Positions 15,226 to 19,421 of a DNA stretch of 64,000 bases are shown one piece after another; the stretch's first letter is position 1, and each line of letters starts with the position of its first letter. The notes under the pieces were generated by a model that searched no databases, was not told where the DNA came from, and saw only the letters and a program-made list of their open reading frames with translations. The DNA comes from Aurantiacibacter zhengii (GTDB lineage Bacteria; Pseudomonadota; Alphaproteobacteria; Sphingomonadales; Sphingomonadaceae), in NCBI RefSeq assembly GCF_003584125.1, contig NZ_QXFL01000001.1, positions 186,001-250,000 of the forward strand, in the 5' to 3' direction. Position numbers and translations under genes: made by a program.

Positions 15226-15984
15226 ATGTCCGAACAACTAGCCCGCCTCCTTTCGATCATGGCCCGCCTTCGCGATCCGCAGCGCGGTTGCGAATGGGAC
15301 GTTGCGCAAACGTTCGAAACCATTGCACCGTACACGATCGAGGAAGCCTACGAGGTTGCCGACGCTATCGAACGCGCCGACATGGCCGACCTGCGTGGTG
15401 AACTTGGCGACTTGCTTTTGCAGGTAGTTTTTCACGCCCGCATGGCCGAGGAAGCCGGTTGCTTCGATTTCGACGATGTCGCGCGTTCCATTGCGGACAA
15501 GATGGAGGCCCGGCACCCGCATATCTTCGGCGACGAAGGCGGCGTAATGGACGGCAAGCGCTGGGAGGATATCAAGGCAGCGGAACGCGCCGTGCAAGGT
15601 TCGACCAGCACTATGGACGGCGTGGCGCGCGCCTTGCCAGCCCTGATGCGCGCAGAAAAGTTGCAGAAACGCGCCGCACGAGACGGCTTTGACTGGCCTG
15701 ACCACGATGGCCCGACGGAGAAACTGGCGGAGGAAATTCGCGAGCTGCACGAGGCAGACGATGCAACCCGCCAGGAAGAAGCCGGAGACCTGCTGTTTGC
15801 GGCAGTCAATCTGGTGCGATCATACGGGATCGGGGCAGAGGATGCCCTTAAGGCCGCCAACGCGAAGTTCGAGCGTCGCTATCGCGCGATGGAAGAGTTG
15901 GCTGATGGCAACTTTGCAAGCCGCGATCTGCATGGTCAGGAAGAGCTGTGGCAGGAAGTAAAACGCCAGGAACGCGAAGGTTAG
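15226..15984 (+). CDS. mazG: Nucleoside triphosphate pyrophosphohydrolase MazG
   Basis: 252-residue all-alpha NTP pyrophosphatase that removes aberrant or excess NTPs. Two MazG domains are seen: residues about 15-115, with the metal-binding helices EEAYEVADAI and LRGELGDLLLQVVFHA, and about 150-245, with EEIRELHEADD and EEAGDLLFAAVNLVR. ATG 15226 has GGAG seven bases upstream; a GTG at 15211 is an alternative. It converges on hflX, with the two stops overlapping. Confidence 0.94.
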   Translation: MSEQLARLLSIMARLRDPQRGCEWDVAQTFETIAPYTIEEAYEVADAIERADMADLRGELGDLLLQVVFHARMAEEAGCFDFDDVARSIADKMEARHPHIFGDEGGVMDGKRWEDIKAAERAVQGSTSTMDGVARALPALMRAEKLQKRAARDGFDWPDHDGPTEKLAEEIRELHEADDATRQEEAGDLLFAAVNLVRSYGIGAEDALKAANAKFERRYRAMEELADGNFASRDLHGQEELWQEVKRQEREG

Positions 15985-17303
15985 AGCGTCTCGAAGCGGC
16001 CCCATTCCTTTTCCGTCAGGCGGACCTCGATATGGCGCATCGGGCCGTCGGAACCCTCTCCGCCATCATTGTCCGACAAAACTTCACCGTGGGCGTGCAG
16101 CCAGGCGATACGCGCGCCGTCCCTGGCCGGCAACATGAGCGAATGGCGCCGGGCGCCTTCTGTCAATTTCGCTCCCAGCTTTTCGCGTAGCGCGTCCACG
16201 CCCTCACCCGTTATGGCCGAGATTGGCATGACCGTGTCGTCGTTTTCCGCAATGCCCGCCAGTTCCTCGCGCATTTCAGGGTCGAGAAGGTCCCACTTGT
16301 TCCAGACTTCGAGGATTGTGGTCGGCTCCCCTTCCCCCTCTTCATCGGTCACTCCCAGATCCGCCAGCACCTGTAACACCTGCTTTTTCTGGGATGCCGT
16401 GTCTGGATTGGCGATGTCACGCACGTGCAGGACGATGTCGGCTGCCGTGACCTCTTCCAGGGTCGCTCGAAACGCTGCGACAAGCTGTGTCGGCAGGTCC
16501 GAGATAAAGCCCACCGTATCGGACAGGATCGCTTTCTCTATGCCCGGCAGAGTTACAGCGCGCATGGTCGGGTCGAGCGTTGCGAACAGCAGGTCTTCCG
16601 CCATCACATCCGCACCGGTCATGCGATTGAAAAGCGTGGATTTTCCGGCATTCGTGTATCCGACCAGTGCGATGACGGGCCACGGTGCCCTGCCCCGCCG
16701 CTTGCGGTGGAGTTCGCGGGTTTTGCGGACCTGTTCCAGCTCGCGGCGCAGCTTGGCCATGCGGTCGCGGATCAGGCGACGGTCGGCCTCGATCTGGGTT
16801 TCGCCCGGACCGCCGAGGAAGCCGAAGCCGCCACGCTGACGCTCAAGGTGGGTCCAGCTGCGCACGAGGCGGCTTGCCTGATAATCCAGGTGAGCGAGTT
16901 CTACCTGCAGCCGGCCTTCGGCAGTGGCTGCACGTTCTCCGAAAATTTCCAGGATCAGGCCGGTGCGATCGATGACCTTGCGGCCGATCTTCTCTTCCAG
17001 ATTGCGTTGCTGGATGGGCGATAGCGCACCGTCGACAATGACGAGTTCCGCCTCGTGCAGTTCGCAGTCGGAGGCGATGCGTTGCACCTGCCCTTCCCCG
17101 AACAGGGTATTGGGACGCACTTCGCGCACAGGAATGATGAAAGCCTCGGCCACGACGATGCCGATCGCTAGCGCGAGCCCCTTTGCCTCTTCCAGACGTG
17201 CTTCGGGATCATCCTCGCGGCGCTGTGCGCGGATGTCCGGGCAGACGACAAGCGCCCGCGCCCCGCGGGTGACTTCACCTTCAATATCGTCGTCGACAAT
17301 CAG
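15981..17303 (-). CDS. hflX: GTPase HflX (start uncertain)
   Basis: Ribosome-associated GTPase that splits stalled or heat-damaged ribosomes. After the N-terminal domain and a helical linker comes the G domain: P-loop [25 protein letters not shown], and NKWDL. The first standard start codon is GTG 17153, but the frame stays open to 17319 and its upstream part ([18 protein letters not shown]...[13 protein letters not shown]) is the expected HflX N-terminal strand-helix, so the longer protein is preferred. No ATG/GTG/TTG exists there. A CTG at 17303-17301 overlaps the hfq stop (CTGA) and has GAAGG about nine bases upstream; ATT 17300 is next. If neither is used the protein has 390 residues. It follows hfq, as in many proteobacteria. 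Confidence 0.88.
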
Positions 17304-17869
17304 TCGCTTTCGCCTTCGTCATCTTCCAGATCGTCGTCGGTCAGGTCGACCGGCCGATCGGGCTGGATCGTGGATACAGCATGCTTGTATGCAAGCTGCA
17401 CATAGCCATCACGTTCCAACAACATGCAGAAAAGGTCGAAACTGGCGATCCGTCCCTGCAGCATCACACCGTTCACCAGGAACATCGTCACCTGCACGTC
17501 CGCATCGCGAACGCGGGTGAGGAAGATGTCCTGCAACAGGCGAAGCTTGCGGTTACCGTCGGGCCCGCTGCCGAACTGTTCGGCATCGACGGGCTGCCCG
17601 GGCATGATGGTGGAAATCGCGTGCTTGTAGACAAGCTGCGATTGCCCGTCCCGCCGCAGCAGGATCGAAAAATTGTCGAACCAAGTCACGATACCCTGCA
17701 GCTTCACTCCTTTCACGAGAAACATCGTGACGGGAATCTTTTCGCGGCGGACGTGATTCAGGAAAATATCCTGCAAATTGGCATTCTTGCCATTCCCGGC
17801 AGGTTTCGCGGCGCGCGATTCGGGTTCTGCCACCGGTCGTGGCCGTGCCGAAAGGGTGCCCTTGGCCAT
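17300..17869 (-). CDS. hfq: Tandem RNA chaperone Hfq (two Sm domains)
   Basis: 189-residue protein made of two Hfq/Sm domains, at about 31-90 and 111-170, exactly 80 residues apart and joined by a Gly/Asp-rich linker. Each keeps LQDIFL near its start and the Sm2 motif YKHA(I/V)STI. Domain 1 has rim basics RREK and the distal-face Lys in VKGVKLQG. Domain 2 has RDAD at the rim and VNGVMLQG, so it has lost both. An N-terminal basic/Pro tail and an acidic C-terminal tail ([13 protein letters not shown]) flank them. Three such chains would build the usual six-domain ring. Hfq pairs small RNAs with mRNAs. ATG 17869 has GGAG 12 bases upstream. It lies between ntrX and hflX. Confidence 0.95.
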
Positions 17870-18035: not shown

Positions 18036-19421
18036 CTAGTCTTCGTCGCCGTTGCTGTTGCGTTCGTTCATCCCCAGCAGCTTCAACTTGCGATGCAGCG
18101 CCGACCGCTCCATCCCGATGAAGCCTGCAGTCTTGGAGATATTTCCCGAAAAGCGTCGGATCTGGATGCGCAGGTACTCGCGCTCGAAACTTTCCCGTGC
18201 CTCGCGCAAGGGCACGCCCATCAGCGACGATATGCCCCCACCACCCTCGTCGGAGCTGCCGGTGATTTCAGGAGGCAACATATCGGGCGTAATGGCGCTG
18301 AAATCCTCGCGCGGGGCAAGAATCACCGTGCGTTCGATCACGTTGCGCAACTGGCGGACATTCCCCGGCCAGTCATAGGCCTGCATCGCCGCCAGTGCCT
18401 CCGGTGCGACCGTGGGCGGCTCCAGCCCCTGCTCGCGCGCGTAGCGGGTGAAGAAATGATCGGCCAGGGCCGGTATGTCGTCCCGGCGCTCCGACAGGGC
18501 CGGAATTTCAATGGGCACCACATTGAGGCGGTAGAACAGGTCTTCGCGGAAACGTTTCTCCTCGATTTCGCCCAACAGGTCCCGCGCAGTGGAGGATACG
18601 ACCCGAACGTCCACGCCCACCTGCCGGCTGCCGCCTACACGCACGAAGCTCTGGTCGGTCAGCACGCGCAGTATGCGCGCTTGCGTGCTCTCTGGCATAT
18701 CGGCCACTTCGTCGAGATACAGCGTGCCGCCGTCGGCCATTTCCAGCAGTCCGGGGCGGACGAGCTTGCCATCGGCCTCCTCCCCGAACAGCTCGTGCTC
18801 GAACCGCTCCGGCGTGATGCGGGCGGAATTGACCGTGACGAAAGCCTTGTCCGCACGCGGGCTCCATGCGTGAAGAAGCCTTGCAGCCACTTCCTTGCCC
18901 GCCCCTGCCGGGCCGCTCACCAGCACGCGGCTGCCGGTATTTGCCACGCGCTTCAAAGTGGCGCGCACGGCGTTGATGGCGCTGGAGTTGCCGGTAAACT
19001 CGTCGGTGCTTGCCATCCCTTCACGCAGACGCTCGTTTTCGCGGCGCAGCCGCTCGGTTTCCGTTGCACGCGCGACGAGGTGCAGCAGTTTTTCCGCCTC
19101 GAACGGCTTTTCGATGAAGTCCATCGCCCCGCGGCTGACCGCGGATACGGCGGTATCGACATTGCCGTGGCCGGAGAAGATGATGACCGGCAGGTTGGGC
19201 TCGCGCTGCTTGACGGCATCCAGCACTTCCAATCCGTCCATCGGGCTGCCGTGAAGCCATACGTCGAGCAGGACGAGGCTGGGCCGACGTTCATCGATCA
19301 TGGCCAGCGCGCTGGCGCTATCACCCGCGGTGCGGCAGTCATAGCCTTCGTCGCTGAGGACGCCGGCAACGAGATCGCGAATGTCGCGTTCGTCATCGAC
19401 GACCAGGATATCGAGTGCCAT
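18036..19421 (-). CDS. ntrX: Nitrogen/redox response regulator NtrX
   Basis: 461-residue regulator paired with NtrY. Receiver domain at 1-120 (VVDDERDIRDL, phospho-Asp in LLDVWLHG, IEKPF), AAA+ domain at about 140-370 (P-loop GPAGAGKEVAARLLH, Walker B GTLYLDEVADMPE), and a Fis-type HTH at the C-terminus (NISKTAGFIGMERSALHRKL). The GAFTGA loop that contacts sigma-54 is missing: after ELFGEE comes ADGKLVRPG. That is a known trait of alphaproteobacterial NtrX and argues against classic sigma-54 activation. It lies 20 bases after ntrY. Confidence 0.94.
   Translation of the reverse strand: MALDILVVDDERDIRDLVAGVLSDEGYDCRTAGDSASALAMIDERRPSLVLLDVWLHGSPMDGLEVLDAVKQREPNLPVIIFSGHGNVDTAVSAVSRGAMDFIEKPFEAEKLLHLVARATETERLRRENERLREGMASTDEFTGNSSAINAVRATLKRVANTGSRVLVSGPAGAGKEVAARLLHAWSPRADKAFVTVNSARITPERFEHELFGEEADGKLVRPGLLEMADGGTLYLDEVADMPESTQARILRVLTDQSFVRVGGSRQVGVDVRVVSSTARDLLGEIEEKRFREDLFYRLNVVPIEIPALSERRDDIPALADHFFTRYAREQGLEPPTVAPEALAAMQAYDWPGNVRQLRNVIERTVILAPREDFSAITPDMLPPEITGSSDEGGGGISSLMGVPLREARESFEREYLRIQIRRFSGNISKTAGFIGMERSALHRKLKLLGMNERNSNGDED

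Follow-up and report, generated by a model that had tools for sequence, protein, structure and literature searches.

A tandem Hfq in Sphingomonadales whose two halves have diverged at the distal face and the rim

The window, a stretch of 64,000 nucleotides of Aurantiacibacter zhengii DNA, carries one gene for two kinds of Hfq domain, fused in a single chain. Comparison with relatives indicates that a distal-face lysine has moved from domain 2 (D2) to domain 1 (D1) and that the rim of D2 has become less basic. We think it probable that three such chains form one pseudo-hexamer with alternating roles, three working rims and three tails. The model builds on the divergence seen in the sequences, on an RpoB tree with one origin of the tandem form, on selective constraint in D1 and D2 alike and on a confident packing of D1 against D2 in two AlphaFold models.

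The gene, hfq (17300..17869, minus strand), was identified from the open reading frame list, Pfam and NCBIfam matches and a genome search. It runs from an ATG to a stop codon at 17300-17302 and encodes 189 residues; the first possible start in its frame is a TTG 16 codons upstream of the ATG. Pfam family PF17209 (Hfq) matches the protein in two stretches (E = 2.2e-57), and NCBIfam NF010691/PRK14091, a tandem-length Hfq model of 176 positions, matches it with 298.5 bits against a cut-off of 270, over profile positions 13-175. Two Hfq domains at such scores are not a chance result. The Sm fold with the Hfq signature is present, as judged from PF17209 and from comparison of the AlphaFold model with Hfq chains in the PDB. 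A search of the same genome returned two Hfq domain matches in one open frame (17588-17776 and 17348-17536) and no further match elsewhere, and a second, ordinary Hfq in this genome was therefore rejected.

Residues are given here what we take to be their E. coli Hfq numbers. These numbers are consistent with the rim residues named in PMC5379935 (N13, R16, R17, R19, S38, F39 and K47). D1 (17588..17776, minus strand) has a basic rim (N13, R16, R17, K19 and R47), K28 and K31 on the distal face, and F42, K56 and H57 on the proximal face. A linker (17537..17587, minus strand) joins it to D2 (17348..17536, minus strand), which has a rim that is not basic (T13, R16, D17, D19 and E47), distal N28 and M31, and proximal L41, F42, K56 and H57. 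The open reading frame translation ends in an acidic C-terminal tail of 15 residues (17303..17347, minus strand). By arithmetic, the codon of K28 in D1 (chain residue 53) lies at 17711..17713 and that of M31 in D2 (chain residue 136) at 17462..17464, both on the minus strand. Both D1 and D2 of the window protein have the proximal pocket (Q8, F42, Y55, K56 and H57), which is also conserved in the two halves of its relatives. A preliminary description of this DNA had proposed two fused, diverged Sm domains 80 residues apart (L32 and L112), each with LQD-FL and YKHA-ST, with RREK in D1 against RDAD in D2 and VKLQG against VMLQG; the translation bears out each of these readings, the matches to both databases agree with the fused domains, and the face-specific change that it saw in the second half is also supported. 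It missed the reciprocal N28K change in D1 (VKGVKLQG) and the differences of D2 at 37, 38, 41, 47 and 63 (A37, S38, L41, E47 and Q63 in the window).

The tandem architecture is not new: it is in print and is modelled by NCBIfam. As the preliminary description had suggested for sphingomonads, the Hfq of Zymomonas mobilis (ZMO0347) and those of six other Sphingomonadales species have two Sm-like domains, and a three-chain ring was posed as a question in the same paper (Yang et al. 2010, PMC2877685). The divergence pattern between the halves is, on the sequences compared here, the new part. The open-licence papers that we searched, as far as their text was accessible, yielded no published account of how the halves differ, which is weak evidence of absence.

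In a sample of the order, 265 of 396 genomes scored above the tandem cut-off, all of them in the window genome's family (f1), to which 313 of the 396 belong by a count from the search table. Re-searching the forty lowest-scoring f1 genomes revealed 13 with one Hfq domain and 27 with two diverged domains, the latter all in a single genus (code g12). The tandem form is thus found in 300 of the 313 sampled f1 genomes, a count that includes as tandem eight genomes just below the cut-off, four of which were re-searched and gave 260-269 bits over nearly the whole model. The 83 genomes from other families of the order comprised 77 with single-domain-level matches and 6 with no match; Hfq was found in 29 of the 31 that were re-searched, one match being partial. 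One genome of another family (G001; loci L168 and L172) has a full Hfq and, on another contig, a partial match in a 51-amino-acid open frame, which may be a paralogue, a fragment or contamination. Above the tandem cut-off, a class sample of 240 genomes contained only the 3 in f1 and a phylum sample of 200 only the 6 in f1. A tandem Hfq outside the family was rejected, as none exceeded the cut-off among 237 class genomes (193 with any match) or 194 phylum genomes (122 with any match), in samples that overlap in some genomes and in which diverged tandems like those of g12 would score below the cut-off. In g12 (L173-L182) both halves are strongly diverged, D2 the most, with Pfam matches down to 45 bits; K28 is nonetheless kept in D1 of all ten. 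This genus offers a natural setting in which to learn which features D2 has to retain.

Gene neighbours, both named by resemblance, place the single-domain and tandem forms of the family at one locus. An ntrX-like response regulator gene (18036..19421, minus strand), which marks the orthologous locus, lies upstream of hfq, and an hflX-like GTPase gene (15981..17153, minus strand; its N terminus extends upstream of 17153) lies downstream. All 13 single-domain loci of f1, all 17 loci of g12 and all 80 named tandem loci have the ntrX-like gene upstream in the same orientation, and 12, 17 and 79 of them, respectively, have the hflX-like gene downstream. In the order's other families, all 29 loci compared have hflX downstream, but ntrX was found at one of them. 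On an RpoB tree of 69 genomes, built by a quick method from one marker without bootstrap (G002 had no RpoB match), a single change separates the single-domain and tandem states: the 52 tandem genomes are monophyletic (SH-aLRT 100), and nine single-domain f1 genomes, whose mutual order is partly unresolved, fall outside their clade. The simplest reading is one in-frame tandem duplication within the family, in place, with no loss seen. We rejected the alternative that the single-domain f1 genes arose by loss of a second domain; because the nine in the tree lie outside the tandem clade and all single-domain rows have N28, they look ancestral rather than reverted.

The boundary between hfq and hflX has a feature of its own. 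The conserved HflX N terminus lies upstream of the first ATG, GTG or TTG of its frame (the GTG at 17153), and the hfq stop overlaps an in-frame CTG as CTGA (at about 17296-17306, minus strand), so hflX may start at this CTG, possibly coupled to the hfq stop. The same overlap is found in five of nine relatives compared (L033, L034, L035, L036 and L059), and some relatives have a GTG or ATG soon after the CTG of the hflX frame.

To compare the halves we aligned 191 distinct tandem and 50 single-domain sequences, collapsed from 217 and 52 rows after removal of four duplicate loci (L001, L002, L263 and L229); the single-domain set includes two partial rows (L171 and L172). Position 28 is Asn in all 50 single-domain sequences, Lys in D1 of all 191 tandems and Asn in D2 of 189, and position 31 is Lys in all 50, Lys or Arg in D1 of 190 and Met in D2 of 183. 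As the single-domain sequences are uniform at both sites, N28/K31 is the ancestral state, from which D1 departed by gaining Lys28 and D2 by losing Lys31. Positive charges at the two positions number two per chain in 189 of 191 tandems (188 counted directly, plus L055), the same as in two single-domain subunits. The preliminary description had reported loss of the distal lysine from the second half; that change is nearly fixed, but it is not a plain loss, given the lysine gained in D1 and the unchanged charge. The distal lysine thus appears to have moved between the halves, in an arrangement that is nearly fixed. Q31 in D1 occurs in a single distinct tandem, L055 (3076-3576), whose D1 reads K28/Q31 and whose D2 reads K28/M31, so that two charges are kept in another arrangement; L174 and L179 have three per chain.

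Simulations of Pseudomonas Hfq show residues 28, 30 and 31 touching distal-face RNA, 28 and 31 via backbone atoms (PMC8121710), so the side-chain effect of the swap is uncertain and it could matter little. Residue states were mapped on the RpoB tree for 50 of the 52 tandem genomes (no Hfq locus was fetched for G123 and G189). K28 is found in both branches of the deepest split among the tandems, M31 in 48 of the 50 genomes, and rim states vary in both branches, which suggests that the swap was early and that much of the rim loss came later and repeatedly. A codon pattern for K28, which misses Hfq genes with other residues at 29-34, matched 9 of the 240 class genomes, three of them in f1. The other hits were rejected as K28 in a single-domain Hfq: four (G409, G431, G599 and G402) lie on a contig other than that of the genome's Hfq match, one is in a genome with no Hfq match (G471) and one was not Hfq on inspection of its sequence (G435).

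At the rim, D1 keeps N13 and R16 in 191 of 191 sequences. D2 has N13 in only 34, Arg or Lys at 16 in 138 and at 17 in 66, an acidic residue at 17 in 85, and Glu (149) or Gln (23) at 47. Mean net charge over positions 16-19, 47 and 48 is +4.75 in D1, +0.45 in D2 and +4.82 in single-domain Hfq, and D1 exceeds D2 in 190 of 191 chains, the two being equal in L018. Among the 50 mapped genomes, D2 changed six times at N13, thirteen times at basic 16, eight times at basic 17 and twice at basic 47, with Arg47 kept in four (G343, G290, G239 and G272); D1 changed once each at 19 and 47 and not at all at 13, 16, 17 or 28. Aligning both halves, the check suggested in the preliminary description for a conserved rim loss in the second half, upheld the lower charge of that half but found lineage-specific residues and no single fixed change. 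Because different residues were lost in different lineages, the loss is better described as a repeated trend. With Arg or Lys still at 16 in 138 chains and halves of equal charge in L018, the D2 rim may remain functional in certain lineages.

Further changes are confined to D2: Trp38 is replaced by Ala (149 of 191), Ser (20) or Gly (17), and T37A (156), N41L (154) and M63Q (184) are widespread. Position 41 adjoins the pocket residue F42, and its change to Leu means that the six proximal pockets may be unequal. D2 nevertheless is under purifying selection, looser than in D1 but not free. It keeps Q52, K56 and H57 in 191 of 191 sequences and Q8 (two gaps) and F25 in 189 each, and the pairwise dN/dS ratio, taken over 263 non-independent pairs with synonymous differences of 0.05-0.4 among 431 of the 434 domains, is 0.138 in D1 and 0.221 in D2. 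Outside g12, sites have a mean entropy of 0.30 bits in D1, 0.66 in D2 and 0.38 in single-domain Hfq.

The segment between the domains is also conserved. Counted between D1 residue 64 and D2 residue 8, it spans 16-24 residues in 207 of 217 chains; lengths below 16 occur in 10, and that of L181 is an artefact of extrapolated domain ends. In 190 linkers (the set leaves out the 27 of g12), D69 is present in 166 and residue 73 is hydrophobic in 184 and Phe in 116; the window linker has both D69 and F73 (chain residues 95 and 99). Only D2 carries the acidic tail, which has a mean net charge of -5.9 from residue 69 on and L70 in all 207 rows long enough to include it; single-domain tails average -3.9, with over-long open frames left out. 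In Caulobacter Hfq, crystal and models show the acidic tip of the tail contacting the rim of the adjacent chain, and in the crystal the tails are also packed against other hexamers nearby (PMC6561178). A short acidic tail of the kind associated with autoinhibition there is found here, and the basic surface on which it would dock (R18, K19, K21 and R49 in Caulobacter, equivalent to 16, 17, 19 and 47) is present in D1 and not in the window D2, which has R16 but D17, D19 and E47.

AlphaFold2 gave the window protein a pTM of 0.75 and a mean pLDDT of 84.2 (81-row alignment; one of five models was poor, at 52.6), and the Sphingomonas palmae protein 0.85 and 90.2 (35 rows). As two domains free to take any orientation would, by our estimate, score a pTM of about 0.45, the relative placement of D1 and D2 is predicted with confidence, in monomer models that cannot separate neighbours within one ring from domains of two stacked rings. 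The start of the linker (residues 91-100) has a mean pLDDT of 90 and a predicted helical turn at 96-99, corresponding to positions 70-73. A fold search, one chain at a time, returned Caulobacter crescentus Hfq (PDB 6gwk) as the closest solved chain, with 78% identity over 65 columns.

From these observations we infer a trimer, a path for the linker, docking of the tail and every effect on RNA. Within the family, an ancestral hfq lying between ntrX and hflX would have undergone one in-frame tandem duplication, and three chains would close into a ring ordered D1-D2-D1-D2-D1-D2. All six units would keep a usable proximal pocket for the U-rich 3' ends of RNA, whereas annealing catalysed by the basic rim would fall to the three D1 units only. 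The preliminary description had also envisaged three chains in a ring, possibly with altered sRNA pairing. The former tail of D1, now the linker, would pass over the rim of D2 and make that rim dispensable, and by analogy with Caulobacter the acidic tail of D2 may shield the rim of D1 in the following chain. With the linker beside D2 and the D2 tail facing the next D1 rim, the model would account for the side on which the rim decays and for the equal numbers of tails and rims. On the distal face, all six positive charges would be kept, on D1 (K28 and K31). A more detailed version, which we put forward tentatively, has the linker permanently occupying the D2 rim through its anchor residue, in the space freed by loss of W38; the ring would then have three annealing sites, each gated by the tail of the preceding chain, and an mRNA-binding face whose repeat is two sites (six nucleotides) long in place of one (three), altering the mRNAs recognised.

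Under neutral entrenchment the same three-chain ring would exist, its distal swap and rim decay being compensated and nearly neutral, and would work like ordinary Hfq minus some surplus rim sites. The charge at 28 and 31, constant per chain in 189 of 191, the D2 rim that alters differently by lineage (six changes at N13 and thirteen at basic 16 over 50 genomes) and the greater variability of D2 speak for this; K28 in 191 and M31 in 183 of 191, however, show strong upkeep, Glu47 in 149 is a charge reversal and not simple decay, and D2 has a dN/dS of 0.221, so we find this account rather doubtful. It is unlikely that six chains instead form a stacked double ring, a D1 hexamer for annealing and a D2 hexamer with another role joined by six linkers. 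Stacked Hfq dodecamers occur in crystals of other species (PMC5379935) and the sequence by itself is compatible with them, and a tight stack would fit the fixed D1-D2 relation in both AlphaFold models, although that relation disfavours a flexible link; one ring would hold all the distal lysines and the other none, yet the total is two per chain in 189 of 191.

Two further accounts give D2 less of a part in a shared ring or none. That it is a decaying spacer, needed only to fill the ring and with no role in RNA binding, would agree with its entropy (0.66 against 0.30 bits) and its strong divergence in g12, but its retention of Q52, K56 and H57 in every sequence and of Q8 and F25 in 189, with the dN/dS of 0.221, makes this very improbable. 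We give almost no credence to two separate Hfq proteins made from the gene by internal translation or cleavage, an outcome that the preliminary description had named as contrary to its reading: Met is present in 80 of 214 linkers but absent from 134, its position varies among the 40 linkers inspected, and linker length and anchor residue are conserved (the scan covered ATG starts). The alternating three-chain ring therefore remains our preferred model.

Hfq is normally a homohexamer, in which a point mutation alters all six subunits together, so the number of rims, tails and distal sites that is needed has been hard to test. If the alternating ring is correct, rim, distal and tail functions could be told apart by mutating one half at a time, which would allow the number of sites to be tested against annealing and RNA exchange. 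The protein would also represent a bacterial step from a homomeric ring towards a hetero-ring of the kind seen in eukaryotic Sm/Lsm proteins.

The window protein shares with the tandem Hfq of Z. mobilis and the NF010691 model two Hfq/Sm-like domains in one chain, within Sphingomonadales; the accessible part of Yang et al. (PMC2877685) contains no half-to-half comparison of rim, distal face, linker and tail, no dating of the duplication and no structure. With Caulobacter Hfq (6gwk; PMC6561178) it has in common a short acidic tail and a basic rim, here in D1, whereas that protein has one domain per chain and forms a homohexamer with six rims and six tails. Single-domain Hfq from the same family (13 f1 genomes) and from the order has the locus with hflX downstream and a near-identical D1 core, and differs in having N28/K31 (50 of 50), a basic rim, and a tail with L70 and F71 in place of the linker. 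Eukaryotic Sm/Lsm hetero-rings are assembled from the products of separate genes, with seven subunits in fixed order. Such rings (Lsm1-7 and Lsm2-8 are mentioned in PMC2877685) would, if the model is correct, share with the tandem Hfq a set arrangement of unlike Sm subunits around the ring, built here from two alternating domains of one gene over six positions.
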